Below are positions 12,912-32,228 of a DNA stretch of 64,000 bases, one piece after another. Each line of letters begins with the position of its first letter. Position 1 is the stretch's first letter. The notes below the pieces were generated by a model. The model was not told the origin of the DNA and searched no databases. It worked only from the letters and a program-made list of their open reading frames with translations. Position numbers and translations under genes: made by a program. Source of the stretch: Thermocrinis ruber (GTDB taxonomy: Bacteria; Aquificota; Aquificia; Aquificales; Aquificaceae); contig NZ_CP007028.1 of assembly GCF_000512735.1 (NCBI RefSeq), positions 806,001 to 870,000 on the forward strand, given 5' to 3'.

Positions 12912-12921
12912 CGTTTAAAGT

Positions 12922-13536
12922 ATGTTAAACAGGGTCTTTAGAATCTTCAGAGAGAAGGGTGGAATACTCAAAGCCCTGGACCTTTGGGATTGGTATGAGT
13001 CTTTGGAGCCCAAGTGGCAAAAGAAGGTAAAGTATTACTTTTCTTTAAAAACCATAAAGAACTTGAACTTTCCTTACAAGGCTAAGCACTTTGACAGCGG
13101 AGATGTTCAAACTGCCTACACAAAGAGGACTTTTCTTGGGAGCTTAGCCCAAACCGCCCTTTTGGAGAAGGACTTTGAAACTGCCCACTGGCTCTATTGG
13201 GAAGCCCTAAAGCAAGAAGGCACACCCTACGAGGAACATCTGATCCTCAACGACCTTCTTTTGCTCTATCAAAAACTCAAAGACTTTGAGAAGATGGAGG
13301 AAGTTGCAAAAAGAGATGTGGAGCTATTTCCAGAGTATGCGGAAGAGCTAAAGGAAAGAAACGGTGGAAAACTGCCACAGATCAACTCCTTTGAGGTTTT
13401 GGTGTATCTTTACGAGCGAAAGGGTCTTTTTGAGGACGCCTTGGCACTGATAAAGAGAATAAAGGAGCTTGGCATTCCCTACCCACATGAGGAGGAAGTT
13501 CTAAAGAGAATTTCTGATAAAATAAACTCCCTTTGA
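12922..13536 (+). CDS. TPR-like helical protein, function unknown
   Basis: This 204-aa soluble protein appears helical throughout. Repeated pairs such as LAQTALLEKDFETAHWLYWEALKQ and YLYERKGLFEDALALIKR resemble degenerate tetratricopeptide repeats. It has no signal peptide. It starts 10 bp after tilS and stops 1 bp before the ychF start, so it is in one operon. A protein-binding role is likely from the fold. No specific partner can be named. Confidence 0.75.
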   Translation: MLNRVFRIFREKGGILKALDLWDWYESLEPKWQKKVKYYFSLKTIKNLNFPYKAKHFDSGDVQTAYTKRTFLGSLAQTALLEKDFETAHWLYWEALKQEGTPYEEHLILNDLLLLYQKLKDFEKMEEVAKRDVELFPEYAEELKERNGGKLPQINSFEVLVYLYERKGLFEDALALIKRIKELGIPYPHEEEVLKRISDKINSL

Positions 13537-13537
13537 C

Positions 13538-14644
13538 ATGGGATTCAGCTGTGGAATAGTAGGGCTTCCCAACGTGGGAAAATCAACCCTTTTTAATGCC
13601 CTTTTGCAGTCGGCAAAGGCTCAGTCTGCCAACTATCCCTTTTGCACTATCGAACCCAACGTGGGCGTGGTAGAGGTGCCAGACCAAAGGCTCTACCACA
13701 TAGCCCAAAAGGAGAGGTCAAAAAAGATCACACCCACCTTCATAGAGTTTTGGGACATTGCGGGCTTGGTAAGAAACGCCAGCAAAGGGGAGGGTCTGGG
13801 TAATCAGTTCTTGGCAAACATCCGAGAGGTGGATGCCATAGTTCAGGTTCTGAGATGCTTTGAGGACCCGGATGTGGTGCACGTAGAGGGAGAGGTTGAC
13901 CCAATAAGGGACGCCCAGATTATAGACTTGGAGCTTATAGCCAAAGACTTGGAGACGGTGGAAAGGAGGTTAGAAAAGGTTCAAAAGATGGCAAGGCTTG
14001 TAGACAAAAAGGTAAAAGAGGAGCTTGAACATTTGGAAAAGATAAAGGCAGTCCTTGACAGAATGGAGCCTCTGAGGAGGCACAAAGAAGAGCTTGGAGA
14101 GGAAACCATAGAGTATGCAAAGAAGACTCTATTTCTGCTTTCTATCAAACCCATCATGTACGTTGCCAATGTGGGAGAGAAAGATTTGCCAGAGGGCAAT
14201 GAGTGGTCCGAAAAGGTAAAGGCTTACGCAGAGCAAGAGTCTGCGCCGGTGGTGGTTATGTGCGCCAAGCTTGAGGCAGATTTGATCGGATTAGAAAGTC
14301 AAGAAAAGCTTGAACTTTTGAAGGCTTACGGGCTTGAAGAACCGGGATTAAATAAGCTAATAAGGGAGGGTTACCGTCTGCTTGGACTTATAACCTTCTT
14401 TACTGCCGGCGAGAAGGAAACCAGGGCTTGGACCATTAAAAAGGGCACAAAGGCACCACAAGCGGCGGGCAAGGTTCACTCGGATATGGAAAGGGGCTTC
14501 ATAGCGGCGGAGGTCATCAACTACGAAGAATACAAAAACCTCCCATCCCTCAGCAAGGCAAAGGAGCTTGGTTTAGTAAGGTTAGAAGGCAAGGATTACG
14601 TGGTTCAAGACGGAGACATAATGTACTTTAGGTTCAATGTGTGA
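13538..14644 (+). CDS. ychF: Redox-regulated ATPase YchF
   Basis: YchF/Ola1 is an Obg-family P-loop protein that binds ribosomes and hydrolyses ATP. The 368-aa sequence has G1 GLPNVGKSTLFNALL, G3 DIAGLVRNASKGEGLGNQFLA, a coiled-coil insert (about 130-200) and the C-terminal TGS-like domain with AWTIKKGTKAPQAAGKVHSDME, diagnostic of YchF. The ATG follows the preceding stop by 1 bp. The 3' end overlaps the convergent glycosyltransferase gene by 11 bp. Confidence 0.97.
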   Translation: MGFSCGIVGLPNVGKSTLFNALLQSAKAQSANYPFCTIEPNVGVVEVPDQRLYHIAQKERSKKITPTFIEFWDIAGLVRNASKGEGLGNQFLANIREVDAIVQVLRCFEDPDVVHVEGEVDPIRDAQIIDLELIAKDLETVERRLEKVQKMARLVDKKVKEELEHLEKIKAVLDRMEPLRRHKEELGEETIEYAKKTLFLLSIKPIMYVANVGEKDLPEGNEWSEKVKAYAEQESAPVVVMCAKLEADLIGLESQEKLELLKAYGLEEPGLNKLIREGYRLLGLITFFTAGEKETRAWTIKKGTKAPQAAGKVHSDMERGFIAAEVINYEEYKNLPSLSKAKELGLVRLEGKDYVVQDGDIMYFRFNV

Positions 14645-15662
14645 AAATCTCAAGAATTTTGTTTATTGTCCTTTGGGCGGAAAACTTTTCCCAATATAGC
14701 TTTTGGGAGTTTTGGGAGAAGGTTTCCCAGTTCTCCAGAGCTAAGGAGAGCTTTTCCTTAAGTGCCTCTGGATTTCCTCTTTCAAAGATGTAGCCGTTGA
14801 AACCTTCTATTACCGCCTCCTTTTGCCCTCCCGAGTCGGAAACTACCAAGGCACAGCCGCTGATTAGCGCTTCAAGGGCAACCCTTGGGAAAGCTTCCTC
14901 TCCCTTTGATGGAATAACGCATACATGGGCTTGGGCGTAGTATTTTTCCACCTCTGGGGTATAGCCCACAAAGAGAAAGTTTTCCCGGTAGTTTTGGACC
15001 ATAGCCTTCAAATCCGCCTCCGCCCTTCCGTTGCCCACAAAGATGCATTCAATGGGATAGCCCTTTTTTAAAAGCTCCAAACAAGCATTTGCCAAGTCAA
15101 AGACACCCTTTCCTTCATCCAGCTTGCCCACAAAAAGAACCTTTAGCTTGCCGTTCTTTGGTTTTTGAGTAGCTTTGAACCCGTCCTCCTCTATGACGTT
15201 GTAAACCACCTCCACCTTTTGCGGTGGCACGCCTTCCCTTATTAAGTTTTGCCTAACATGTTCGCTTACCGCCAAAAATTTATCCACAAAGGGAAAGACA
15301 AACTTCCGGACTGTCCACTCTCTCATACGGGACATGTGCCTGAAGAAAAAAACCTTACTACCCGCCAACTTTCCGCAGTAAAGAACATCTGGATACTCCT
15401 TTCCGTTGTTGGCTACTACAATATCCGGCTTTTCTGAACTTATTGCCCTATACAGCTTTATCATGCTCGGCAGTGTTAGGCTGTGGGGAAAGGGTATGTA
15501 AAGCTTTCTTACAAAGTCTGTATTTTTATCCATAAAACTGCCCTTGGCACATATTAGGGTTATGTCAAAGAAATCCTTCAGGTATTTTAACATGCTTACG
15601 GTGTGGAGCTCTGTGCCTCCAAAGTTTGGGTTTGGATTGCCGTTAACCCAAAAGACCCTCAA
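14634..15662 (-). CDS. Glycosyltransferase family 4 (GT-B fold)
   Basis: The 342-aa protein begins MRVFWVNGNPNPNFGGTELHT, the GT-B nucleotide-sugar start with a GG-T-E motif. The C-terminal half carries LKVLFVGKLDEGKG and the donor-site block PSKGEEAFPRVALEALISGCALV, typical of GT4. It probably adds a sugar to an outer-membrane or capsule glycan, with donor and acceptor unknown. The start overlaps the upstream metallohydrolase by 4 bp, placing it last in a five-gene minus-strand run. Confidence 0.9.
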   Translation of the reverse strand: MRVFWVNGNPNPNFGGTELHTVSMLKYLKDFFDITLICAKGSFMDKNTDFVRKLYIPFPHSLTLPSMIKLYRAISSEKPDIVVANNGKEYPDVLYCGKLAGSKVFFFRHMSRMREWTVRKFVFPFVDKFLAVSEHVRQNLIREGVPPQKVEVVYNVIEEDGFKATQKPKNGKLKVLFVGKLDEGKGVFDLANACLELLKKGYPIECIFVGNGRAEADLKAMVQNYRENFLFVGYTPEVEKYYAQAHVCVIPSKGEEAFPRVALEALISGCALVVSDSGGQKEAVIEGFNGYIFERGNPEALKEKLSLALENWETFSQNSQKLYWEKFSAQRTINKILEIFTH

Positions 15663-16585
15663 TCTTCCTCGTAATCCAACTGGTTATAAACCGCAAAGAT
15701 GTTGGCGTTGTAAAATTCGTTATACATTTTGTAGTCCTTAAAGGGATTTTCCGCCAGTGCTTGCCTTATCTCGTCTACACTTTTGCCCTCTTCTTTCATC
15801 TTTTTTACCCTCTCCCTAAGAAAGGTAAGGTAGTTCAGAGTATCATCTATGGCATCCTTTTTGAGAGGTTCGTTGTGCCCGGCCAGGATAACCTCCACAT
15901 CCATACCTTTGAGCATCCTAAGAGCCTTTATCCATCCTCCTACACTGGCGTTTCTGTCCCCTGCGAAAATGATCCTTTTGTAGCTAACCAAATCTCCCGC
16001 AAAGAGCACCCTCTCCTTTGGCATATAAACCACAAGGTCGTTGTTAGTATGGGCACTGTGTTTGAGGGGAATAAGCTTAAAGGTGTATTCTCCCACCTTT
16101 AGTTCTGTGTCTTCCTTTACCACTATATCTGGTGGCACCAAAACCACATTGTCAAAGAGACCCTTGAACCTCTGCTTGGCACCATCCAGAGCCATCTGGG
16201 CTTGACCGGATTTGTATTCCTCCATCAAAACATGGTGGGCTATTATCTTTGCTCCAAGCTCTTTGTATGTTTTTGCACCATACCAATGGTCTGGATGGTA
16301 GTGGGTTATTATGGCATACTTTATGGGTGCCCTTTTGACCCTGTATAGGTTCTCCACAAACTCCTTTGAAAGCTCAGGAGTAGACAGTGCATCCACCACC
16401 ACCCATCCTTCTTTGGTTAGCACCGCAAAGGCGTTGGACATGAACCCCCTGTTTTCCAAAGAGGGCAGGGCATCCACACCTCTAACCATGTAGATGTTCC
16501 CCGAGACCCTTTTTAGCTTCATCTCGGGGGCAAAGGCAAAGGCAAGCACCACAAAGAGCAGAGTAAGTTTAAAGAGCTTATACAT
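15659..16585 (-). CDS. Exported metallo-beta-lactamase-fold hydrolase (SoxH-like)
   Basis: The 308-aa product has a signal peptide (about 1-19). Its MBL metal set includes HYHPDHWYGAK, a later histidine in KHSAHTNNDL, AGDLV, and AGHNEP near the C-terminus. The HxHxDH motif shows a likely dinuclear metal site. Close paralogues are called SoxH or quinoprotein-relay zinc metallohydrolases. The substrate is unknown and the protein should be periplasmic. A paralogue closes the sox operon at 39189-40160. Here it overlaps nuoG by 8 bp. Confidence 0.85.
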   Translation of the reverse strand: MYKLFKLTLLFVVLAFAFAPEMKLKRVSGNIYMVRGVDALPSLENRGFMSNAFAVLTKEGWVVVDALSTPELSKEFVENLYRVKRAPIKYAIITHYHPDHWYGAKTYKELGAKIIAHHVLMEEYKSGQAQMALDGAKQRFKGLFDNVVLVPPDIVVKEDTELKVGEYTFKLIPLKHSAHTNNDLVVYMPKERVLFAGDLVSYKRIIFAGDRNASVGGWIKALRMLKGMDVEVILAGHNEPLKKDAIDDTLNYLTFLRERVKKMKEEGKSVDEIRQALAENPFKDYKMYNEFYNANIFAVYNQLDYEED

Positions 16586-18470
16586 TTTTTACTCCCTCAT
16601 AAAGGTTGTTCTTTTCATAAAGCTTTGAAAGGTTTGCGCTCCTTCTCGTTAGCCAATTGCTCCTGTATAGATGCACCTCCACCAGACCTTCCTGAGGGAA
16701 CAGTTCCTCAGAGAGCCTGCTTATACTTCCACCCTTTGGAAGGCTATCCAAAAGGCCCTTTAAAAATTCCTGAAGGCTACCACCCTCGGGCAAAAAGCCT
16801 TTTGTTTTCCTTTTACCCATGAGGGTTGAGTAGGTCCCTTCCTCCTCTCCCATCAAAAACATGGGCACCCTAAAGTAGGACAGGGAAGATAGCCCATCTA
16901 AGAAGGGAGAGAAGACCACAAAGTGTTCTACCTTTTCCCTAAGCTTGGAAATTCTTTCTGAGCCATAAAGGTCAAAGAGGTCCTCTCCAAAGATCAGAAG
17001 GTTTCTTACCCTTCCCTCCTCCACATGCCTTATTATGCTCTCTATGGGAGTGAGCTCCTCCCAAGAAAAGTTCCCAAGCACGCCCAAAAAGTTCGCCTCT
17101 TTGCAGACCAGCATAACATCCCAGCCCTTTTCCTCTTTAAACTTTCTAACCTTTGCACCCCACTCCTTGGCGGACTCTCCAAAAACACCCTCTAAGTTAA
17201 AGATCAGCAAACCTTTGCCATCAAGCTTTTGGACATCTCCCCAGCTTATCACCTCTGGGTTTAGCTTTGCGTCCCTTTCCACATTGCCCACCTTGAAGAC
17301 CTTACCCTTTATGTAATAAGAGAGCACCGGTGCTGTGGAGGTTAAGTCCTCTCCCACCAACAGAAACTGGGAATAATTCTTGAGCTCCTCAATGCCTATG
17401 GGCTTATACTCTCCGTAGGTTTGCAAGAAGGGATAGAGGTTGGCGGTTAATGTGGTGCTAACCAAGGCGGAGCTTCTTTGGGCAATCTCCTTAAGAAGGG
17501 CTAAGTTTTCGTTGCTGAGGTATCCAGATATAACTATGGCGTTGGTGCCCTCACCCTTTAGGTAGGTGGCAAGGATCTGGGCGGTGTTGCCAAAGGTCTC
17601 CTCTTTACCAAAAAGCTGGGGCTTTCTTAACCTGCTGTCGTTCAAAAGGTCGTAGCCAAAGAAGGCTTTGGCACATATATCCAAGCTATCGGTAGGCTTC
17701 GTTCTATACACCTTTTCTTTGGACCTCCAGTCTCCCACGCCGTATTCTATTTGCACCTCACAACCCACTGGGCAAAGGTTGCAGGCAGTTAGGTCCCTTT
17801 TCAGTAGCCAGCTTCTGGTCCAGTACTTGAAGGGCTTTGAGATTATGGCACCCACTGGGCATACATACACACAGATCCCACACATCTCACAGGTGGAGGT
17901 GTCCATAGGTCTTTGGGCGGGTGCTATGTTTGCCTGAAAGCCCCTCTCTTCCACATACAGAGCCCTTGCACCCACCACATCGTCGCACGCCCGGGTGCAT
18001 CTATAGCACACTACGCATCGGTTGGAGTAATATTCCAAAAAGTCGCTCTCCCAGTCCAGCTGATGCCTCTCCTTCTCAAGGGCAGAGACGGGAACTATTT
18101 GTTTTTGAGGTCCAAAGAGGGCACCATAATTTTGCAGGTCGCATTCTCCCGCTTTGTCGCATATAGGACAGTCTAAGGGATGCCTTGTCATGAAGGCTTG
18201 CAAGAGGTATTTTTGATTTTCCACCACCATAGGATGCTTGGTGGATATAACCATCCCCTCTTCCACGGGTGTATTGCAAGAGGTTATAAGCCTTCCCGTC
18301 TTCTCGTTATATACAATGCACATCCTGCAGGCACCTATTATTCTCAACCTGGGATGATAGCAAAAGTAAGGCACATCTATACCTGCATCCAGCAAAGCCT
18401 GAAGCAGGGGCTTGCCTTTTTCTACCTCAAGGGTCTTCCCATCTACTGTTATAGTAACTATAGATGTCAT
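16578..18470 (-). CDS. nuoG: NADH-quinone oxidoreductase subunit G
   Basis: NuoG carries iron-sulfur clusters of complex I. The N-terminal [2Fe-2S] site is C37, C48, C51 and C65. Next comes the NuoG-specific His-Cys3 cluster around HPLDCPICDKAGEC, then two ferredoxin-like four-cysteine sets (CVVCYRCTRAC and CEMCGICVYVCP). A further set, CNLCPVGC, starts the molybdopterin-like domain, which runs to residue 630. Length is shorter than the E. coli protein. No other nuo gene is adjacent, so this copy is detached from the main cluster. It overlaps the GGDEF gene by 4 bp. Confidence 0.92.
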   Translation of the reverse strand: MTSIVTITVDGKTLEVEKGKPLLQALLDAGIDVPYFCYHPRLRIIGACRMCIVYNEKTGRLITSCNTPVEEGMVISTKHPMVVENQKYLLQAFMTRHPLDCPICDKAGECDLQNYGALFGPQKQIVPVSALEKERHQLDWESDFLEYYSNRCVVCYRCTRACDDVVGARALYVEERGFQANIAPAQRPMDTSTCEMCGICVYVCPVGAIISKPFKYWTRSWLLKRDLTACNLCPVGCEVQIEYGVGDWRSKEKVYRTKPTDSLDICAKAFFGYDLLNDSRLRKPQLFGKEETFGNTAQILATYLKGEGTNAIVISGYLSNENLALLKEIAQRSSALVSTTLTANLYPFLQTYGEYKPIGIEELKNYSQFLLVGEDLTSTAPVLSYYIKGKVFKVGNVERDAKLNPEVISWGDVQKLDGKGLLIFNLEGVFGESAKEWGAKVRKFKEEKGWDVMLVCKEANFLGVLGNFSWEELTPIESIIRHVEEGRVRNLLIFGEDLFDLYGSERISKLREKVEHFVVFSPFLDGLSSLSYFRVPMFLMGEEEGTYSTLMGKRKTKGFLPEGGSLQEFLKGLLDSLPKGGSISRLSEELFPQEGLVEVHLYRSNWLTRRSANLSKLYEKNNLYEGVKNV

Positions 18471-19297
18471 GCACTTTCCTCCTTAATATCTATAAGATAG
18501 GATAACCCATCTGCCTTTAAAACTGCAACTTTAGATTTTCCACTTTGCTTGGCTTGGTAAAGGGCTTTATCCGCCCTTGCTAAAACCTCCGAGTATGATT
18601 TGTCATTGTCCGAAGGTTGGCTTGCACCTATACTAACAGATAACTTTGTAAAAAATTGGATACCGCTCACACATTTAATAATTCTTAAAGCAACCTTTTC
18701 TCCATACTCTATGCTTGTGTTGGGTAATACCATCAAGAATTCGTCTCCACCCCATCTTGCTGCTGTATCTGAAGACCTTGTGTGCGCCCTTATACACAAT
18801 GCAACTTTTATTAGTGCTTCATCTCCTGCGGTATGCCCATAATTGTCGTTTATTTCCTTTAGGTTGTCCAGATCTATGAAAAGCAAAGTATAAGGCTGTT
18901 TGTATCTTTTCCATAGGTTGTGTGTTTTTTCAAGGAAATTAAGCATAAACTTCCTATTATACAGTTGAGTTAAATTGTCAATGAAGCTAGACCTAATATT
19001 GTTTATATTGGTTATATTAACCACACTTTCGTAAAACATTCCCCCCCATGGTATAACACCATATCCTCTTAAATAAGATTCAAATTCAAGATCTACTATA
19101 TCAAATCCACTTTCTTTTCCATATACAGGGCATTTTATACCACGCTGATAACAAGGTGTTTCTAAGTTGTATAGCACTTTATAGCATTCTTTTCCAATTA
19201 TTTCTCCAAACATATTCTTTGCGGTTTGATTGGCTGCCACAATTCGGTAATTGCTATCTATTATTAAAGATGGCAGAAGCCTTTCTATACCTTCCAT
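18467..19297 (-). CDS. PAS-GGDEF diguanylate cyclase
   Basis: The 276-aa protein starts with a PAS-like domain (about 1-95) that contains CYKVLYNLETPCYQRGIKCPVYG, a three-cysteine loop. A GGDEF domain (about 105-260) follows, with LTQLYNRKFML, DLDNLKEIND and the intact active site RWGGDEF. It should make cyclic-di-GMP from GTP. No RxxD inhibitory site is obvious. There is no membrane segment. The cysteine loop suggests redox or metal sensing, which is inference. It overlaps genes on both sides by 1-4 bp. Confidence 0.93.
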   Translation of the reverse strand: MEGIERLLPSLIIDSNYRIVAANQTAKNMFGEIIGKECYKVLYNLETPCYQRGIKCPVYGKESGFDIVDLEFESYLRGYGVIPWGGMFYESVVNITNINNIRSSFIDNLTQLYNRKFMLNFLEKTHNLWKRYKQPYTLLFIDLDNLKEINDNYGHTAGDEALIKVALCIRAHTRSSDTAARWGGDEFLMVLPNTSIEYGEKVALRIIKCVSGIQFFTKLSVSIGASQPSDNDKSYSEVLARADKALYQAKQSGKSKVAVLKADGLSYLIDIKEESA

Positions 19298-19869
19298 TAC
19301 CTTACCTCAAATACCACTTTTTGTCCTCTTTTCATAAGCTCCTCCACTACCTGTACTGCAGACTCAAAATCAAAGACCTTTCCTCCAAAGCCTTTTGCAA
19401 ACTTCTCCGCGTCTTCTTTATTGCCAAAGGCTATGGCGGAGGGACTACAGCAGGGCACCGCCGAAGAATCTACCACATACCAAGCGGAAAAGCAGTTAAT
19501 TGGATTGCCCGATATAAAGTCTCGGGTCATGCAAGATTGGACTTCATTGCCCTGAAGTTCCTTAAAGAGAAGAAGCCCACAGTGGGCACAGCAGGCGTAA
19601 ACTGTTTTACCCGTAAGCCTATACACAAACTCCAACCGTTTGTCGGATAGTTTCCCACAGTAAGCACATACACCTATCTCTTGAACCTGCTTTTCTTCCT
19701 CCTTTTTCAAAAGAAGCTCCCCGTGTCTTCTTATGATCTTTCCTTCCCTCTCCAACTCCCTAACATCCCTGTATATGGTCATGAGGGAGACGCCAAAGTG
19801 TTCCGCGAGGGTTTTAACACTGTTGTATCCCTTTGCTATCAGTTCAAGTATCTGTTCCTTCCTGTTCAT
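19297..19869 (-). CDS. DeoR-type HTH fused to a NosL-like Cys-rich domain
   Basis: Residues 1-55 form a DeoR-type winged helix (ILELIAKGYNSVKTLAEHFG, then VSLMTIYRDVRELEREGKI). Residues 66-190 resemble the NosL copper-binding fold: CAYCG, CCAHCG, then TRDFISGNPINCFSAWYVV, the AFGNKEDAEKFAKGFGG block and a final helix. Nine cysteines are present (68, 71, 92, 93, 96, 112, 125, 139, 140). NosL proteins are periplasmic copper chaperones, but this one lacks a signal peptide and carries DNA-binding helices. I infer a metal(loid)-responsive transcription factor. The ligand (copper or arsenite) is unknown. Confidence 0.75.
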   Translation of the reverse strand: MNRKEQILELIAKGYNSVKTLAEHFGVSLMTIYRDVRELEREGKIIRRHGELLLKKEEEKQVQEIGVCAYCGKLSDKRLEFVYRLTGKTVYACCAHCGLLLFKELQGNEVQSCMTRDFISGNPINCFSAWYVVDSSAVPCCSPSAIAFGNKEDAEKFAKGFGGKVFDFESAVQVVEELMKRGQKVVFEVR

Positions 19870-20575: not shown

Positions 20576-21403
20576 ATGATCGTCCTTTTTGCACTCTTGC
20601 TGAGTGTTCTTTTAGCCTTTGGTAGGGATATAAAGGTAGGATTTACCGCGGTCATCACAAGGGAAGATGTAAAAACCATAAAGGACTTTTTGGACTACCT
20701 TTCAAGGAAAACGGGCTTTAGCTTTAGTCCAGTCTTTGCGAGGTCCTACGATGAAATGGATTTTTATCTTTTCAACGGAAAGGTTGATTTGGCTTACATC
20801 TGCGGTGCTCCATATGTGGAAGGGCACAAAAAATACGGTTATTACCTCGTCGCGGTCCCACTTACCTCCGATGGTCCCTACTACTATTCCTATGTTATAA
20901 CCAAAAAAGACAGATCTTATCGGTCAATCCTTGATTTTGAAGGAAAACCTTACGCCTTTTCGGACCCAAAGTCCAACTCAGGTTCCGTTGCCCCCACTTA
21001 CTTTCTTCTGAAAAACGGATACTCTCCCACTGAGTTTTTTAAACCCTTGATATACACTTACTCCCATTACGAGTCTATAATGGCGGTCTATAAGGGATTT
21101 GTGGAGGGTGCCAGCGTAGATAGCATAGTCTATGAACATACCAGTTTAGTGGCACCGTATATCACCAACAAGCTTAAAGTTATCCAGAAGTTTGGACCCT
21201 TCCCGGCCACACCTATTGTAGCAAGCAAAAGACTGGACCCAAATATAGTAAAAGTGGTAAAGAGAACCCTTTTAGAGATGCATCAGGATGAGGAGGGAAG
21301 GAAAATCCTAAAGAATATGGGCATATTGGGCTTTACCTACCTTGAGCCAAAACATTACGAAACCATAGCCCATATGATAAGCTACATAAAGAAAATTAGA
21401 TGA
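20576..21403 (+). CDS. aioX: Arsenite-sensing periplasmic binding protein
   Basis: The 275-aa protein has a signal peptide (about 1-15) and a PhnD-like periplasmic-binding fold ([15 protein letters not shown] start, [18 protein letters not shown]). AioX proteins bind As(III) through a conserved cysteine and trigger the AioS kinase. Here a single cysteine, C76 in [11 protein letters not shown], is present in the whole protein and sits in the ligand-cleft region. It is followed by aioS with an ATGA overlap, then aioR and aioBA, the standard order. No Shine-Dalgarno is visible before the ATG. Phosphonate binding is the alternative, but the context argues for arsenite. Confidence 0.88.
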
Positions 21404-23073
21404 AGGCTTTTGCTGAAAGGCTCAGAAAAGCCAGCATAGGACTAAAACTTTCCCTCACTTTTGTTTTTGTAATCGCCCTCTGTTCTCTACCTATGTCTTT
21501 GCTAACCATAAACTATCTGAGCAACAAACTAAAACAGCATGTGATGAACACCATTGAAGAGTCTGTACAATCTCAAAAGGATGAACTCATAGAGCTTATC
21601 CTTATGGAAAACTACTGGAGAGCCTTTAACAAAATTGAAGCCCTCTCTCAAATACCAGGTGTAAAGGAGGTGGTCCTTGTGGATGCCAACAACCGCGTAA
21701 TCGCTTCTTCAAAACCAGAGGAGAAGGTAGTGGGAAGATACTTTTCTAGCAGCACAGATTACCTAAAAATCCCCATAGAAAGCTATTCATACACTATAGG
21801 CTATCTCTACTATCAGATCAAAAGGGAATACATAGAGGGTATCGTATCTCCCCTTAGGTTTATTACCTTGGCTTTTACTTTCTTCTTTACCCTTGTGGGC
21901 GTGCTCTTGGGAGTGTTTGTTTCCCTTAGAATAAATGAAAGGCTAAGGCAGGTGAGGGAAATGATAGAGGAGTTTAAAAGGGGAGGTATGCCCACCAAGA
22001 AGGATTTTTGGGAGAGGGATGAGTTAACCGAGTTGGCAGACTTTGTGCATAAAAGCTTGAGCGACCTTAAGGGTATCTTTTCCAACTTGGAGTTTGCAAG
22101 AAACTTTTATGAGAGCCTGTTTAACACCCTACAGGAGATCGTTCTAATATTAGATGAGGCGGGAACCATATACTTTTGCAACAAGGCAGTAGAGAACTAT
22201 GGCTTTTCAGTGGAGAGCCTGCTTGGAAGAAAGGTGGGAGTGCTTTTGGGAGGACCGAGGGAAAGAAGAGAGGTAAGGGAGAGCATAAGGCAGAAAGGAA
22301 CCTACACGGGCGTGGTAAAGCTCAGAAACAAGAAAGGGGAAGAGAGCTACGCCTTGGCGGTCTTGGTGCCTTGGGTGGATGCCTTTATCTTTACCCTAAA
22401 GGATATAACGGAGCTAAAAAGGTCCGAGGAGTTGGTAAAGAGGATGGAGGTTTTTTCCTTGCTTGGGGAGATGAGCGCCTACCTCGCCCATGAACTAAAA
22501 AATGCCATCCTCCCTCTGAAGCTTTTATCTGAAGTAAGCGAATGGAACGAGGACGATATAAAGGTGGTTAGGGCTTCAATAGAGAGGGTTGATAAAATAG
22601 TGAGTAGCTTTTTACAGTTTGCCAGACCTGTAGAGGAGAAAAAAAGAGAGTTTAGCTCCTGGCAGTTGGTGGAGGATGTGTTAAAGATCTACGAGCCCGC
22701 CATAAAGAAGAAGGACATAGACTTGGTTTTGGATGTGATGGACTTTAAACTATACACCAACAAAACCGCTTTGGAGATCATCCTCAGCAACCTACTCAAA
22801 AACGCCATAGAGGCAGTAGATGAAAAAGGTAGGATAGAAGTTTCCCTCAGGAAAGACGGAGAAAAGACAATCCTTATGGTAAAGGACAACGGGCACGGGA
22901 TACCCAAAAAGCACATAAAGAAAGTCTTTGATCCCTTCTTTAGCACAAAGCGGGACAGCACTGGGCTTGGTCTTTCTACGGTAGCCAGGTATGTGCAAAT
23001 GCTTGAGGGAAAGCTGAGCGTTTTCTCCGAGGAAGGAAAAGGTTCTACCTTTTTAGTGGAGGTGAAGGCATGA
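21400..23073 (+). CDS. aioS: Sensor histidine kinase of the arsenite system
   Basis: This 557-aa membrane kinase has one transmembrane helix near 20-40, a sensor segment (about 41-145), a second helix near 150-170 and a HAMP-like linker. A PAS domain (about 235-345) precedes the H-box LAHELKNAILPLKLL (H near 365), N-box LLKNAIEAV, and G boxes DNGHGIP and STGLGLSTV. It should autophosphorylate when AioX reports arsenite and pass phosphate to AioR. It is coupled to aioX and overlaps aioR by 4 bp. Confidence 0.92.
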   Translation: MKAFAERLRKASIGLKLSLTFVFVIALCSLPMSLLTINYLSNKLKQHVMNTIEESVQSQKDELIELILMENYWRAFNKIEALSQIPGVKEVVLVDANNRVIASSKPEEKVVGRYFSSSTDYLKIPIESYSYTIGYLYYQIKREYIEGIVSPLRFITLAFTFFFTLVGVLLGVFVSLRINERLRQVREMIEEFKRGGMPTKKDFWERDELTELADFVHKSLSDLKGIFSNLEFARNFYESLFNTLQEIVLILDEAGTIYFCNKAVENYGFSVESLLGRKVGVLLGGPRERREVRESIRQKGTYTGVVKLRNKKGEESYALAVLVPWVDAFIFTLKDITELKRSEELVKRMEVFSLLGEMSAYLAHELKNAILPLKLLSEVSEWNEDDIKVVRASIERVDKIVSSFLQFARPVEEKKREFSSWQLVEDVLKIYEPAIKKKDIDLVLDVMDFKLYTNKTALEIILSNLLKNAIEAVDEKGRIEVSLRKDGEKTILMVKDNGHGIPKKHIKKVFDPFFSTKRDSTGLGLSTVARYVQMLEGKLSVFSEEGKGSTFLVEVKA

Positions 23074-24395
23074 GAGTTATAGTGGTGGATGATGATTTTG
23101 GGGTTTTGCATTCTATAAAAAGGGTCCTCAGTTCAAAGGGCTTTGAGGTGGTTGCCCTGCAGTCCCCGGAGGGCTTGGAGGAGTATCTGCCAGAGAGCAA
23201 CCTACTTTTGATGGATATAAGGTTGGAGGGTGAGAGGGGGACGGATGTGGTGGAGAAACTGAGGGCAAAGGGTTTTAACATTCCGGTGATCTTTATAACC
23301 GCCTATGCGGATGCGGACGCGGTGGTAAATGCCTCAAGGCTTGGTGCGGTAGATGTATTAAAAAAGCCCTTTAGTAGCCAAGAGCTTTTGCAGGCGGTAA
23401 AAAACGCCCTGGAGTTTGTTCCAAAGCTTGAGCCCTCTTACAGCAGGGAATTAAAGGTAATTGGCTCCTCAAGGGCTATGTTTGAGGTGTTCAAAAAGGT
23501 GGGCTTAGCCTGTCAAAATGATCTGAATGTTTTGATAACAGGAGAGACGGGGGTAGGAAAGGAAGTTGTTGCCAAACTCATCCATGAAAACTCTCCGAGG
23601 AGAGAGGGACCCTTTGTAATACTGCACTGCCCAGCCATACCCTGGGACCTCTTTGAGGCAGAGCTCTTTGGTTATGTGAAGGGAGCCTTTACGGGCGCAT
23701 TGGTGGATAAAAAGGGAAAGGCTAAGTTGGCGGAGGGCGGAACGCTATTTTTGGATGAGATAGGGGATTTACCCTACAAGCTCCAAGCCAAGCTTTTGGC
23801 TTTTGTGGAAAGAAAGAGCTTTTTCCCCTTGGGTAGCTCAAAGGAGGAGAAGGCAAATGTAAGGCTCATCTTTGCCACCAACAGGGACCTAAAAAAGATG
23901 GTGGAAGAGGGAAAATTCAGAGAGGACCTATACCACAGAATAAGCCAGTTGGAAATACACGTGCCACCACTCAGAGAAAGAAAAGAGGACATAAAACCCT
24001 TGGTGGAATACTTTGTAGCCCTTGCCAACGCCGAGTTGGGAACGAGCGTGGAGGGAGTGGAGGAGCAGGCACTAAGAAAACTCATGGACTATTCCTTTCC
24101 GGGGAATGTTAGGGAGCTAAAAAACTTAGTCTATAAGGCAGTGCTTGAAACAAGGTTTGGAAGGATAAAGGACTTTGCCCTTCAGGAGGAAAAAAAACAT
24201 TCTTCTTTTGAGAAAGCTTTGGAGCTTTTGCTTGATGCGGTGCCAGAGGAGGAACTTCCAAACCTCCTTGAGAGGGTGGAGCTATACCTTATAAAAAAGC
24301 TTCTTGAAAGATACTCAGGGAACAAATCCAAAGTGGCGAGCCTTTTGGGAATATCCAGAAACACCCTGGAAAGCAGACTAAGAAACCTCAAGTAA
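23070..24395 (+). CDS. aioR: Sigma-54-dependent response regulator
   Basis: This NtrC-type activator has 441 aa: receiver domain (1-120, phosphoacceptor D49 in LLMDIRL), AAA+ domain with Walker A GETGVGKE, the sigma-54 contact GAFTGA, and LFLDEIGDLP. A C-terminal Fis-like helix-turn-helix, SKVASLLGISRNTLESRLR, ends the protein. It should bind enhancer dyads and activate sigma-54 promoters. Two matching dyad pairs and -24/-12 promoters lie directly downstream (24400-24505) and before the flavoprotein gene (27903-28008), so its regulon can be predicted. Confidence 0.94.
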   Translation: MRVIVVDDDFGVLHSIKRVLSSKGFEVVALQSPEGLEEYLPESNLLLMDIRLEGERGTDVVEKLRAKGFNIPVIFITAYADADAVVNASRLGAVDVLKKPFSSQELLQAVKNALEFVPKLEPSYSRELKVIGSSRAMFEVFKKVGLACQNDLNVLITGETGVGKEVVAKLIHENSPRREGPFVILHCPAIPWDLFEAELFGYVKGAFTGALVDKKGKAKLAEGGTLFLDEIGDLPYKLQAKLLAFVERKSFFPLGSSKEEKANVRLIFATNRDLKKMVEEGKFREDLYHRISQLEIHVPPLRERKEDIKPLVEYFVALANAELGTSVEGVEEQALRKLMDYSFPGNVRELKNLVYKAVLETRFGRIKDFALQEEKKHSSFEKALELLLDAVPEEELPNLLERVELYLIKKLLERYSGNKSKVASLLGISRNTLESRLRNLK

Positions 24396-24399
24396 AATC

Positions 24400-24437
24400 T
24401 GCTCAATTTTTGAGCACCCATTGTCAAAATTTGAGCA
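24400..24437 (+). promoter_or_regulatory. Paired AioR operator (enhancer) before aioBA
   Basis: Site 1 at 24400-24416 is the perfect dyad TGCTCAATTTTTGAGCA. Site 2 at 24421-24437, TTGTCAAAATTTGAGCA, is a weaker copy with an intact right half. The sites start 21 bp apart, two helical turns, and end 52 bp before the -24 box. The same arrangement recurs at 27903-27940. Assignment to AioR is inferred from position. Confidence 0.75.
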
Positions 24438-24489
24438 TTCTCGGGGAGGTTTCCTTTTGAAAAGTCTTGATTTTTCAATGTTTTAAAAC

Positions 24490-24505
24490 TGGCACGAAGT
24501 TTGCA
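24490..24505 (+). promoter_or_regulatory. Sigma-54 promoter of aioBA
   Basis: TGGCACG (24490-24496), 4 bp, then TTGCA (24501-24505) is a full-consensus -24/-12 element. A CTTGATTTTTCA word at 24466-24477 is shared with the second promoter. Confidence 0.92.
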
Positions 24506-24538
24506 GTATATAAAAAGCGAAACCCGTTAGGAGGTGTG

Positions 24539-25051
24539 ATGATGTTTATGACTAAGATTTCCAGAAGGACCTTCATAGGGGGGAGCGCAATGATGGGCGC
24601 TCTCTTGACCTCGCCGGAGCTGGTGAAGGCCCTTACGAGCCAGCCCTACCCAAGGGTAAAGGTGGCAAACATCAGGAACCTGAGGGTAGGCGAGCCTGTT
24701 AGCTTTAACTACCCAGATGAGCACTCTCCCGCAGTGCTCATCAAGCTTGGAGAAAGGGCTTATGGCGGTGTGGGACCGGATGGGGATATAGTGGCATTCT
24801 CTTCCCTATGCACCCACATGGGCTGTCCTGTTAGCTATTCCAAAAAGCGGTTTGTGTGTGCGTGCCACTACTCTATGTTTGATCCCGCAAAGAACGGACA
24901 GACCTATCAAGGGCACGCTTCTGAATGGCTCCCTCAGATAATCTTACGCTTTGAGCCAAGCACAGGAGACATATACGCGGAGGGAGTGGAAGGGCTTATT
25001 TGGGGAAGAGTTAGAAATGTTTTGAAAGCTACAAAAACTACCAAAAAATAA
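24539..25051 (+). CDS. aioB: Arsenite oxidase small (Rieske) subunit
   Basis: This Rieske protein accepts electrons from the molybdenum subunit and passes them to a cytochrome or copper carrier. A Tat signal is visible (SRRTFIGGSAMMGALL), so the folded AB complex is exported. The [2Fe-2S] ligands are in CTHMGCP and CACHYSMFD. The start is the ATG at 24539 or 24542 after GGAGG, and earlier in-frame codons are upstream of the promoter. It is 14 bp before aioA and driven by the sigma-54 promoter. Confidence 0.95.
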   Translation: MMFMTKISRRTFIGGSAMMGALLTSPELVKALTSQPYPRVKVANIRNLRVGEPVSFNYPDEHSPAVLIKLGERAYGGVGPDGDIVAFSSLCTHMGCPVSYSKKRFVCACHYSMFDPAKNGQTYQGHASEWLPQIILRFEPSTGDIYAEGVEGLIWGRVRNVLKATKTTKK

Positions 25052-25065
25052 AGGAGGTGTAAGCC

Positions 25066-27687
25066 ATGGCGCTGTTTCCAAGAATGGACCGCATACCAAT
25101 ACCACCAAAGGATGCCCAAAAATTTGTCACCGTCTGCCAATACTGTAATGTGGGCTGTGGCTACTATGTCTACAGGTGGCCTATAGGCAAGGAGGGTGGT
25201 CTAAAGCCCGAGGAGAACGCCCTGGGTATAGACTTCACCAAGCAGGGAGTAGCCCTGCAAACCCAATCAATAACTGAAACTATGTACAATGTAGTAAAGG
25301 GTGAAGACGGCAAGCTTTACAACATACTCATACTGCCCGCGAAGGACTCGCCCATAAACAGAGGAAACTACTCCATAAGGGGTGGAACCAACGCACAGGC
25401 AGCCTATTCACCCACAAAGCCCACCAGAAACAGGCTACACTATCCTCTGATAAGGGTTGGTGATCAGTTTATGCCCGTTAGCTGGGATGAAGCCATAGAC
25501 CTTATCGCAAGGGTAGTGAAGGGCGTCAAGGACAAATGGGGACCGGACTCTATAGCGATGAAGATCCACGACCATGGAAACTCTGGCGCTGGCTTTGAGG
25601 ACAACTGGGCGGTAGGAAAGTTCTTCTTCGTAGCTGTGGGCACCAGAATGCTCTCTATTCACAACAGACCCGCCTATAACTCCGAGGTCTGGGGGCAAAG
25701 GGAAAGGGGAACCCACGAGCTTAACTACACCTACGAGGACGCAAGGCTCGCGGACACCATCGTGCTTTGGGGTGCTAACTCCTTTGAAACCGCATCTGTC
25801 TTCTACACAGAGCACATGCTACCAAACCTCCAAGGTGCAACCATAGAGGAAAAGAAGAAAGAGTATCTGAAGGGAGAGCCCGCAGAACCCGCAAGGATGA
25901 TCATCGTGGACCCCAGGAGAACTGCCAGCGTAACGGTTGCTGAAGCAGTGGCACCCGATAGGGTCCTCCACCTTAGACCAAACCTTGGAACAGACTATGT
26001 GCTTGCCAACGCCATAGCAAGGGCTGTCTGGGAAAAGGGATGGTGGGACAAAGAGTTTGTGGAAAAGAGAACAGATCTGAAAACCTTTGAAGATTACAAG
26101 AAGAAATCCCTAATGCTTGATGTCCCTTACGATGAGTTTATGAGCAGGGTGGAAAGGCTAACGGGCGTCAAAAGGGCAGACATAGAAAAGGCAGCGGAGT
26201 GGATCGCCAAGCCCAAAGCAGGAGGTTTTAGAAGGAGAACTCTTATCATATACGAAAAGGGTGTAATATGGGGCTATAAGAACTACGACACCATTGCAGC
26301 CATTGCCCAACTAGCTGCACTTACTGGAAACTACGGAAAGCCCGGCACAGGCTGTGGAAGGCAGGGCGGACACCAAGAAGGCTATGTAAGACCTCACAGC
26401 AAATCCAGGGCAAAACTTGTGGGCTCCATATACGCAGGAGGACCACCACCCAACATAGACGAGTATGTAAAGAACGACCCAAGGGCGAAGGTTTATTTCG
26501 TGGCTGGAACAGACCCGTATCTCTCCACACCAAACTCTCAAGCCTATAAGAAGAGGGTGCACGAAAGGACGCTTGCGCTTACAAGATATCTCTCTGAACA
26601 GGCAAAGCTGGCAGGAGAGCCCTCCGGCTCTGAGGAGAGGGCAAAGAGGATCCTTGAAGGTCTTGAAAAGACGGACGGTCTGTTCATGGTGGTTATAAAC
26701 ATGTATGAGATTGAAACCGCAAGGGATGCCCACGTCATACTACCCGCAGCGGGCTGGGGAGAAACACCTACCACCCACATAAACTGCAACAGCAGGCTTC
26801 TCAGGATCGCAGACCAATTTATGGCACCTCCCGGAGAGGCTAAGCCCGACTGGTGGATTTGGGGAAGGATAGCTACCAGGATGAAGGAACTATACGAGGC
26901 GGAAGGAAACCGCGAAGAGGCCAAATACTGTGCGGGTATGGACTGGAAGAGTGCGGAGGAAGTATTCTTGGACGGAGCAAGTGAGTTTCCGAACAACAGG
27001 GTCTCGGAGGCAGACGAGGCAATGCTACCCGCAGAGTGCTACAAAGGTGTGACCTACGAATATCTCAGAAAGGTAGGACAAAAGGGCATACAGACTCCCG
27101 TTCGCATAGACCCCAAGACGGGAGAGCTTGTGGGCACAAAGAGAAGGTATGTGCACAAGTTTGGCACACCGGATGGTAAGTTCAAGTGGTATGGCACAGA
27201 CCCATGGGATCCCGACCCCATGAAGTTCTACCCACCCCAGATTACCAAATACTTCAAAGATGGAAATGATAAGAAATTCCCCTTCTGGTTTACCAACGGA
27301 AGATCACAGATAATTTGGCAAACGGGCTACAACGACAGGTATCTGCCTGAGAAGGTCTATACCATACCCTTGCCCTACATAGAGATGAACCCGGAAGACG
27401 CCAAAAGGCTTGGAATTAAGAGCGGAGATATTGTAGAGGTATATAACTTGGAGGGCAACGCCATAGCCCTTGTGTATGTGAACGACGCACCTCCTCCCGG
27501 AACGATATACGGCATAATGTATCACTGGAAGGGTTCCCTCAATCACCTTACCACCGACTACACAGACCCCAAAACCACCATACCCTGGTATAAGGCTTCA
27601 AGGGTGGCAGTAAGAAAGCTAAAGGGTAACCTGCAGGATGTGCTCAAGAACACCTCCCTACTGCCCATAAACGACTTCAAAACCTAA
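25066..27687 (+). CDS. aioA: Arsenite oxidase large (molybdopterin) subunit
   Basis: AioA oxidises arsenite to arsenate at a molybdenum bis-MGD centre. The 873-aa protein has the [3Fe-4S] ligands C24, C27 and C31 (CQYCNVGCGYY). Where four-cluster relatives have a fourth cysteine, this protein has serine in NRGNYSIRGG (near residue 104), characteristic of arsenite oxidase. It has no signal peptide, since export depends on AioB. Length fits the family (about 820-880). It probably lets the organism use arsenite as electron donor or detoxify it. Confidence 0.96.
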   Translation: MALFPRMDRIPIPPKDAQKFVTVCQYCNVGCGYYVYRWPIGKEGGLKPEENALGIDFTKQGVALQTQSITETMYNVVKGEDGKLYNILILPAKDSPINRGNYSIRGGTNAQAAYSPTKPTRNRLHYPLIRVGDQFMPVSWDEAIDLIARVVKGVKDKWGPDSIAMKIHDHGNSGAGFEDNWAVGKFFFVAVGTRMLSIHNRPAYNSEVWGQRERGTHELNYTYEDARLADTIVLWGANSFETASVFYTEHMLPNLQGATIEEKKKEYLKGEPAEPARMIIVDPRRTASVTVAEAVAPDRVLHLRPNLGTDYVLANAIARAVWEKGWWDKEFVEKRTDLKTFEDYKKKSLMLDVPYDEFMSRVERLTGVKRADIEKAAEWIAKPKAGGFRRRTLIIYEKGVIWGYKNYDTIAAIAQLAALTGNYGKPGTGCGRQGGHQEGYVRPHSKSRAKLVGSIYAGGPPPNIDEYVKNDPRAKVYFVAGTDPYLSTPNSQAYKKRVHERTLALTRYLSEQAKLAGEPSGSEERAKRILEGLEKTDGLFMVVINMYEIETARDAHVILPAAGWGETPTTHINCNSRLLRIADQFMAPPGEAKPDWWIWGRIATRMKELYEAEGNREEAKYCAGMDWKSAEEVFLDGASEFPNNRVSEADEAMLPAECYKGVTYEYLRKVGQKGIQTPVRIDPKTGELVGTKRRYVHKFGTPDGKFKWYGTDPWDPDPMKFYPPQITKYFKDGNDKKFPFWFTNGRSQIIWQTGYNDRYLPEKVYTIPLPYIEMNPEDAKRLGIKSGDIVEVYNLEGNAIALVYVNDAPPPGTIYGIMYHWKGSLNHLTTDYTDPKTTIPWYKASRVAVRKLKGNLQDVLKNTSLLPINDFKT

Positions 27688-27695
27688 ATCTAACT

Positions 27696-27711
27696 GGGGG
27701 CTTGTGCCCCC
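27696..27711 (+). terminator. Hairpin after aioA
   Basis: GGGGGC, TTGT, GCCCCC forms a perfect 6-bp stem 9 bp after the aioA stop, followed by only a weak T tract (TTGGT). It could weaken read-through into the small gene and flavoprotein. Confidence 0.6.
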
Positions 27712-27742
27712 TTGGTATAAAAAAACTTTAGGAGTTATCCAA

Positions 27743-27885
27743 ATGATAGACCCTGAAGTCCTTTCAAAGGTGCGCACATTCCTCAGAGCGGAGGGGTGAT
27801 AATTCCTAAGGGACCCATAAAGGAGTTTTACTCCCAGCTCATGAAGCTTTCTGGTTTTGGCATAGGTGGTCTGCTTAAGCAGTGA
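27743..27885 (+). pseudogene. Small gene with a frameshift between aioA and the flavoprotein
   Basis: An ATG at 27743 with a GGAG site gives MIDPEVLSKVRTFLRAEG, then TGA at 27797-27799. Starting at GTG 27796 the next frame continues VIIPKGPIKEFYSQLM, then KLSGFGIGGLLKQ, to TGA 27883-27885. A missing G in the GGGG run at 27793-27796 would join the two into a protein of about 47 aa. It is either a decayed gene, a sequencing error, or a programmed frameshift. I do not know the family. The rest of the 27688-28035 gap is regulatory. Confidence 0.5.
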
Positions 27886-27902
27886 TGGCTTTTATTGAGC
27901 AT

Positions 27903-27940
27903 TGCTTAATTTTTGAACAGCTGTGCTCAGTCCTTGAGCG
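27903..27940 (+). promoter_or_regulatory. Paired AioR operator before the flavoprotein gene
   Basis: TGCTTAATTTTTGAACA (27903-27919) and TGCTCAGTCCTTGAGCG (27924-27940) match the dyad TGCTCAA-N3-TTGAGCA. Starts are 21 bp apart, and the last site ends 52 bp before the -24 box, exactly as in front of aioB. An extra half-site TTGAGCA is at 27895-27901. Confidence 0.75.
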
Positions 27941-27992
27941 AGTTCTAAGGACATGCCCTTGATTTTTCATGGCTTTAAGCTTTACCCTATGT

Positions 27993-28008
27993 TGGCACGC
28001 TTTTTGCA
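27993..28008 (+). promoter_or_regulatory. Sigma-54 promoter of the flavoprotein gene
   Basis: TGGCACG (27993-27999), 4 bp, TTGCA (28004-28008) is a full-consensus -24/-12 element. CTTGATTTTTCA at 27958-27969 is also found upstream of aioB, displaced by 11 bp. Confidence 0.92.
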
Positions 28009-28035: not shown

Positions 28036-29271
28036 ATGATAAAGCACTTTGATGTGGTTGTGGTGGGCAGTGGTCCGGGTGGTTTCACCAGCGCCTTGAT
28101 CCTTGCAAGACAGGGTTTTAAAACAGCACTTGTAGAAAGGGAAAAACTGGGTGGTACTTGCCTTCAGAGGGGTTGCATACCAAAGGAGGGTATGTATCAG
28201 ATCGCGCGCTCCGCTCACTTTCTAAAAAAGCGTCTAGGAGTTTCTGTCCCTTTGGATTTTGAAAAGGCCCTCCTTAAGGTTAGAGAAAGGATAAATAAGA
28301 TAGAAGAAAACGCAAAGTTTTTACTCAAAAAGGAGGGTATTGTCCTTGTGGAGGGTTCCGCAAAGCTTGTGGATGAAAAGGTCATCAAGGTTGGGAGAAA
28401 CACTTACCTTAAAGCAGACCACATTATTTTAGCCTGCGGTTCAAGACAAAAAGAGGCTGGCGTAAGCGCGGAGGACCTTCTAACGGGCAAAGTTAAGCCA
28501 AAAGGAAAGATCCTCATTGAGGGCTCTGGTGCTACCGCCTGCGAGCTGTCTTTTATACTCTCCGTCTTCGGCTTTGAAGTGTTCTTAAAGGTGGAGGGGA
28601 GGCTTTTGAAAGATTATCCAGTGGAAGAAGAATTCGTTGAAAAGCTTGAAAGGGAGTTGGAGATGTGCGGTGTAAAATTCACCACAACCAACGAAGACGC
28701 AGACCTTCTTGTAAAGGCAACCGGTAGGGTCCCAAACCTCTGTGAGGAGGAATTTCCCTTCCTTGAGAGGGACGAGGAGGGTTATGTAAAGGTTTCACCT
28801 TACATGAGAACGAACCTTCAAAATGTTTATGCGGTGGGAGACATAACAAAGCCTATGGGTGCATCCCATGCCATAGCCAAGGCAAAGAGTGCCTGTCAGT
28901 GTATAATGGGATGTCCGCAACCCTACAGACCGGAGCTGGTGCCCGTAGTAATATGCTCTGCATTGGAATTGGGCTTTGTGGGAAGTATGAAGGAAGGCAG
29001 GAGAATAGTTAAGACCTTAAACGCCAACACAAAGAGCTTTGTGAACGGATGGAACGGTATGATCAGCATTATTGTGGACGAAGAAGAAAGGCTCTCTTAC
29101 TCTTCTATGTTAGGTGAGTGCGTAAGCGAGCCCATGAACATAGCCTCTGCCATTATCGGAAGTGCCCTCTGGGACCAGTTCTTCTTTTCCAACAACTACA
29201 CACACCCCTCCATCTGCGAATCCTTCTCCGACCTGAGCTTGGAGTTTATGTTCAATTTGCTAAACCTTTGA
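28036..29271 (+). CDS. Dihydrolipoamide-dehydrogenase-like flavoprotein in the AioR regulon
   Basis: This 411-aa member of the pyridine-nucleotide disulfide oxidoreductase family has the FAD motif GSGPGG (11-16) and a redox disulfide C42/C47 in GGTCLQRGCIP. The NAD-binding half (about 155-230) is short, and the usual GxGxxG reads EGSGATACE. AVGDITKP binds FAD, and the C-terminal HPSICE replaces HPTxxE. At 411 aa it is about 50 residues shorter than normal Lpd. Its own sigma-54/AioR promoter implies a role during arsenite exposure, perhaps with lipoyl or thiol substrates. No lipoyl protein gene is adjacent. Confidence 0.82.
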   Translation: MIKHFDVVVVGSGPGGFTSALILARQGFKTALVEREKLGGTCLQRGCIPKEGMYQIARSAHFLKKRLGVSVPLDFEKALLKVRERINKIEENAKFLLKKEGIVLVEGSAKLVDEKVIKVGRNTYLKADHIILACGSRQKEAGVSAEDLLTGKVKPKGKILIEGSGATACELSFILSVFGFEVFLKVEGRLLKDYPVEEEFVEKLERELEMCGVKFTTTNEDADLLVKATGRVPNLCEEEFPFLERDEEGYVKVSPYMRTNLQNVYAVGDITKPMGASHAIAKAKSACQCIMGCPQPYRPELVPVVICSALELGFVGSMKEGRRIVKTLNANTKSFVNGWNGMISIIVDEEERLSYSSMLGECVSEPMNIASAIIGSALWDQFFFSNNYTHPSICESFSDLSLEFMFNLLNL

Positions 29272-32123: not shown

Positions 32124-32139
32124 TGCAAAAAGCATGCCA
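32124..32139 (-). promoter_or_regulatory. Sigma-54 promoter of the nirB-like gene
   Basis: On the minus strand TGGCATG (32139-32133), 4 bp, TTGCA (32128-32124) is a near-perfect -24/-12 element 24 bp upstream of the chosen ATG. It shows that the correct start is 32099, not an upstream codon. Confidence 0.88.
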
Positions 32140-32200: not shown

Positions 32201-32228
32201 TGCTAACATTTTTACATTTTTGTTAGCA
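32201..32228. promoter_or_regulatory. Shared upstream dyad between nirB-like gene and nrtA
   Basis: TGCTAACA (32201-32208) and TGTTAGCA (32221-32228) form a perfect 8-bp inverted repeat with a 12-bp A/T-rich spacer. It lies about 62 bp from one -24 box and 73 bp from the other, suited to an enhancer-binding activator serving both directions. The sequence does not match the NtrC consensus I know. TGCTAACA recurs once at 32344-32351, across the nrtA start codon. Confidence 0.6.

Follow-up and report, generated by a model that had tools for sequence, protein, structure and literature searches.

The arsenite oxidase genes aioB and aioA of this genome follow the genes of a putative sensing system, and a flavoprotein gene (lpd) lies downstream of them. 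A sigma-54 promoter with a pair of upstream dyads was found before aioB and another before lpd. This raises the question of whether both promoters answer to the same activator, and whether that activator is AioR, whose gene adjoins the first of them. The window examined is a 64,000-nucleotide stretch corresponding to bases 806001-870000 of a single-contig Aquificaceae genome of 1,521,037 bases (1.52 Mb).

Layout of the aioB and lpd promoters

The gene order of the locus was aioX-aioS-aioR-aioB-aioA. As in other AioXSR systems, aioX (PhnD-like), aioS and aioR (REC, AAA+ and Fis HTH) were linked to aioBA, and a -24/-12 element and two tandem palindromes preceded aioB. Both oxidase subunits scored above the cut-off of their families (TIGR02693 and TIGR02694). 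The features, in window coordinates, were as follows.

20576-21403, plus strand: aioX, periplasmic PhnD-like binding protein, probable arsenite sensor (Pfam Phosphonate-bd, E 8.5e-56)
21400-23073, plus strand: aioS, sensor histidine kinase (PAS, HisKA, HATPase_c)
23070-24395, plus strand: aioR (receiver, sigma-54 AAA+ with GAFTGA, Fis-type HTH; orthologues in relatives)
24400-24416, plus strand: aioB operator dyad 1, TGCTCAATTTTTGAGCA (motif match and relatives-only matrix)
24421-24437, plus strand: aioB operator dyad 2, TTGTCAAAATTTGAGCA (motif match and relatives-only matrix)
24466-24477, plus strand: shared word CTTGATTTTTCA, 24 bp before -24 (complement with WATCAAG, IHF-core-like)
24490-24505, plus strand: sigma-54 -24/-12 element of aioB, TGGCACGAAGTTTGCA (TGGCACG-N4-TTGCA, perfect)
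24539-25051, plus strand: aioB, Rieske subunit of arsenite oxidase (TIGR02694, above cut-off)
25066-27687, plus strand: aioA, large subunit of arsenite oxidase (TIGR02693, 1098 bits, cut-off 359)
27719-27877, plus strand: V4R-domain gene remnant, 5' end, with a frameshift and cut off immediately ahead of the operator (DNA alignment)
27903-27919, plus strand: lpd operator dyad 1, TGCTTAATTTTTGAACA (motif match and relatives-only matrix)
27924-27940, plus strand: lpd operator dyad 2, TGCTCAGTCCTTGAGCG (motif match and relatives-only matrix)
27958-27969, plus strand: shared word CTTGATTTTTCA, 35 bp before -24
27993-28008, plus strand: sigma-54 -24/-12 element of lpd, TGGCACGCTTTTTGCA (TGGCACG-N4-TTGCA, perfect)
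28036-29271, plus strand: lpd, lipoamide-dehydrogenase/glutathione-reductase-like flavoprotein (Pyr_redox_2, E 6e-39; PDB relatives)

The first dyad begins 4 bp past the end of aioR. The first-pass annotation had described an identical geometry at aioB (24400-24505) and lpd (27903-28008), and both the 17-bp dyads starting 21 bp apart and the 52-bp gap between dyad 2 and the -24 element were found exactly as described before each gene. The dyad form it gave, TGCTCAA-N3-TTGAGCA, was perfect only at the dyad starting at 24400, while the other three were off at 2 of 14 positions. The GG-N10-GC core of sigma-54 promoters was present at both sites, and the genome contained three genes of the HU/IHF family and an RpoN-like gene (E 8.7e-52, yet under the family cut-off).

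The shared word CTTGATTTTTCA lay at positions differing by 11 bp relative to the -24 element, as had been noted earlier. Around it, 18 of 21 positions were alike between aioB and lpd, a match equalled in 1 of 5000 shuffles. The motif CTTGAT, the complement of which (ATCAAG) resembles the IHF core, was found 24 bp (aioB), 35 bp (lpd), 24 and 25 bp (two porin promoters) and 15 bp (an aioBA-like operon) before -24, offsets of about whole helical turns, the promoter set for its significance count having been picked after the word had been seen. These offsets hint at a bend site that stays in phase. CTTGAT was also found in one relative (G001) but was missing from ten other aioB promoters, and it was therefore rejected as a general promoter part and treated as lineage-specific.

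The lpd gene and the possible origin of its promoter

The product of lpd (411 aa) contains CxxxxC (TCLQRGC) and a C-terminal HPxxCE, and probably works as a disulfide reductase. It scored 183.7 bits with the dihydrolipoyl dehydrogenase equivalog TIGR01350, the cut-off of which is 408.8 bits. The family occurs in sulfur-metabolism operons, and a paralogue in the same genome was found in an operon with genes for a V4R protein, ATP sulfurylase, uroporphyrinogen methyltransferase and a sulfite reductase/PAPS reductase fusion. This sulfur-assimilation operon (sulfite reductase-ThiS-PAPS reductase fusion, cobA-like, sat, lpd paralogue, V4R) occupies 12531-19688 on the minus strand of L094 (genome 880000-899900), with a perfect sigma-54 element at genome position 899673. 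The bEBP gene at 899826 is divergent from this operon.

The remnant upstream of lpd was aligned to V4R genes standing beside lpd homologues. Of the V4R gene, only some 135 bases from its 5' end are left, and the predicted AioR promoter occupies the place of the remainder. The lpd orthologues in G029 and G003 each follow a V4R-domain gene, and in G076, on the same contig as aioR, the orthologue comes after a TtrA-like Mo-enzyme operon. The operator was absent before all three of these orthologues, indicating that lpd is not a conserved target. As the predicted AioR promoter stands in the place of the missing V4R sequence, it was probably acquired later, and its gain would have brought lpd under AioR.

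Alternatively, the lpd promoter may be a recent local duplicate of the aioB promoter that has lost its function or has yet to gain it, with lpd transcribed mainly by read-through from aioA, but we consider this unlikely. The stretch of 18 of 21 matching positions common to both spacers would fit a duplication, and read-through would fit a gene that starts 349 bp past aioA, as well as the arrangement in G070, where a broken lpd directly follows aioA with no promoter in between. However, the non-conserved bases have diverged while the spacing, half-sites and -24/-12 element have been retained, and the shared word has shifted whereas the 52-bp spacing is constant. Moreover, the left half-site of dyad 2 is better at lpd (TGCTCA) than at aioB (TTGTCA). 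These differences speak against the duplicate reading.

The operator pair in relatives and its candidate activator

AioA was present in 13 of the 121 genomes searched, including the genome under study. A test set beforehand, the presence of the dyads upstream of aioB in relatives, was borne out at all 11 other Aquificota loci that were readable (G001, G011, G014, G016, G022, G059, G070, G071, G079, G085 and G100, in two families), with starts 20-22 bp apart and 51-52, 60-63 or 77 bp to -24. The pair was also found before the aioB homologue of G060, which has a more distant AioA. In G016 and G076 the pair precedes a porin gene (20 bp apart, 53 bp to -24), and in seven genomes (G011, G014, G059, G071, G079, G085 and G100) that porin gene directly follows aioA. 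No close AioR orthologue was found in G070 (L063), which has the aioB pair. Because its aioA is split in two frames and its lpd is broken, the arsenite-oxidation module of G070 is apparently decaying while its operators persist.

G076 also carries a second, divergent aioBA-like operon (L099, 16082-18933) with a predicted AioR-type promoter of identical geometry. Its AioA-like protein has an N-terminal signal and falls under the TIGR02693 cut-off. In G016 and G023 (L034 and L035) aioXSR is separate from aioBA and adjoins a TtrA-like Mo-enzyme operon, and G023 has kept aioXSR without aioBA and without the porin. Control by AioR of the TtrA-like operon near aioXSR or aioR in G016, G023 and G076 was considered and rejected, as no pair was found there.

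The HTH common to the AioR proteins encoded beside these operators was GNKSKVA..LGISRNTL, and other bEBPs have other recognition helices. The proposal that AioR serves the lpd promoter too is supported by the 4 bp separating aioR from dyad 1 and by a clade that shares one helix, which together point to AioR as the probable binder. AioR paralogues occur in four genomes of another genus (L037, L038, L039 and L041), where a comparable pair, in divergent orientation to the paralogue genes, precedes a cytochrome c7/Mo-enzyme/NrfD operon and lies 75-76 bp before -24; these paralogues keep the AioR helix (read in two of the four genomes). The AioSR-like pairs at the same four loci have no neighbouring AioX.

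In the AioR of Hydrogenophaga the HTH is GSVGKTA..LGISRKTL (GSVGKTAEVLGISRKTL), and the aioB promoter there carries GTTACTTTTTTGTAAC (GTT-N10-AAC upstream). The proteobacterial AioR site, GTT-N10-AAC, was absent from both the aioB and the lpd promoters, and for this reason the system is called an Aquificota variant, the site being a feature of proteobacterial members and not of the AioXSR system as such.

It is very improbable that a different NtrC-family activator of the same genome binds the dyads. The genome encodes five bEBPs, counting AioR itself, that match AioR at E values of 1e-40 or lower. However, in 151 genomes the pair matches with no more than one mismatch fell at aioBA or lpd loci in genomes that have AioR, the one exception being a non-palindromic match in G048. 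The other sigma-54 promoters read in the genome (at genome position 899673 and the nirB-like one at window position 32139) have different upstream dyads, and the helix of the bEBP adjoining the sulfite-reductase operon differs from that of AioR. The sigma-54-like element before the nirB/nirA-like fusion gene is TGGCATGCTTTTTGCA (window 32124-32139, minus strand), and the dyad upstream of it is TGCTAACA-N12-TGTTAGCA (window 32201-32228, minus strand).

Single dyads with up to 3 mismatches were not enriched in the window (4 found, 3.5 expected from shuffles), placing the signal in the pairing and spacing. A weight matrix was therefore built from 20 dyads in the aioB promoters of other Aquificota genera, with the window and its nearest relative left out, and used to score dyads as pairs 21 bp apart against a control of 60 first-order Markov windows. 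The first-pass annotation had offered its operator consensus as testable, and the matrix recovered both pairs in the window, that of aioB first (43.0) and that of lpd second and clearly lower (24.6), with the next best at 6.2. The best pair over the 60 shuffled windows scored 14.8. Among background sequences, only the promoter of the aioBA-like operon of G076 scored above 12, and it has the spacing of aioB and lpd (21 bp and 52 bp) and a perfect -24/-12 core. That the two sites resemble each other by chance in AT-rich intergenic DNA, with which the lack of enrichment of single dyads would agree, was already judged unlikely from the conserved spacing and is refuted in practice by the matrix scores, together with the exact 52 bp and the perfect -24/-12 element, leaving it with practically no probability.

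A search of the whole 1.52-Mb genome for the pair pattern with up to 3 mismatches found no place besides aioB and lpd (reversed control, 0), a result that is partly circular because the pattern was drawn from these two sites, whereas the matrix, applied to the window, is not circular. A wider AioR regulon in this genome was thus rejected, there being no further pair within 3 mismatches, and no twin operator was found upstream of aioX.

The proposed switch and known systems

In all likelihood AioR, encoded just upstream, activates both aioBA and lpd through the two sites, and very probably the arsenite sensor of the cell switches on both operons together. From the layout, its conservation, its co-occurrence with AioR and the shared HTH, all read from the sequence, we infer AioR binding, ring assembly, bending and the induction of lpd by arsenite. 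The sites would be upstream activating sequences for AioR, which is the NtrC-type member of the arsenite-sensing AioXSR system. With the dyads 21 bp, or two helical turns, apart, phosphorylated AioR would bind them as a pair of dimers on one face of the DNA and assemble its AAA+ ring. Separated from -24/-12 by the fixed 52-bp spacer with its probable bend site, it would then open the closed sigma-54 polymerase complex there. By the twin-operator signature, the AioR regulon here would have two members, aioBA and lpd just downstream.

The consensus and geometry of the predicted AioR operator are now usable for Aquificota, which makes arsenite regulons predictable from the genomes of hot-spring organisms that are hard to manipulate genetically, and a redox flavoprotein and a porin are added as candidate partners of arsenite oxidation. 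A broader and tentative reading, to which we give a modest chance, is that AioR in the Aquificota controls more than arsenite oxidase, with its twin operator before different genes in different lineages (a porin, a second aioBA-like enzyme and lpd), and that lpd may help to oxidise arsenite or thioarsenate, tying arsenic to sulfur metabolism.

In NtrC-type tandem enhancers of sigma-54 promoters, a pair of dyads shares one face of the helix some 85-105 bp upstream. The layout and the probable bend site before the promoter are alike here, but the dyad sequence and the regulator differ. The lpd product resembles dihydrolipoyl dehydrogenase (TIGR01350) and glutathione reductase as an FAD/NAD disulfide reductase with CxxxxC and a C-terminal HPxxxE-like motif. 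However, it is shorter and under the family cut-off, and its homologues adjoin a V4R gene rather than 2-oxoacid dehydrogenase genes.

For 12 aioBA operons accompanied by aioXSR, earlier work described tandem palindromes 100-200 nt ahead of aioB together with -24/-12 elements, and proposed that the palindromes are AioR sites (PMC3834237). In A. tumefaciens GW4, AioR was footprinted on GTTCGGATTTCCGAAC, a GTT-N10-AAC site before mcp, one of the extra genes it controls (PMC5335332). A literature search, mostly without subscription journals, found no papers on AioR operators in Aquificota. The switch design, tandem palindromes and a sigma-54 promoter before aioB, is thus already known, and what appears to be new is the sequence of the operator in Aquificota, the precise spacing and a further predicted regulon member, lpd, with its promoter just after a decayed V4R remnant.

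The proteobacterial AioXSR/RpoN-aioBA systems (A. tumefaciens 5A and GW4, Rhizobium NT-26 and H. arsenicoxydans) have the same gene set and likewise a sigma-54 -24/-12 element, tandem palindromes before aioB and extra AioR-controlled genes. They differ in the operator, which is TGCTCAA-N3-TTGAGCA in Aquificota and GTT-N10-AAC in Proteobacteria, in the HTH, and in the second target, which is mcp in Proteobacteria and a flavoprotein or porin (predicted) in Aquificota. The Aquificota AioR would thus be a sigma-54 activator for which the layout has been kept while the recognition sequence is unlike the proteobacterial one.
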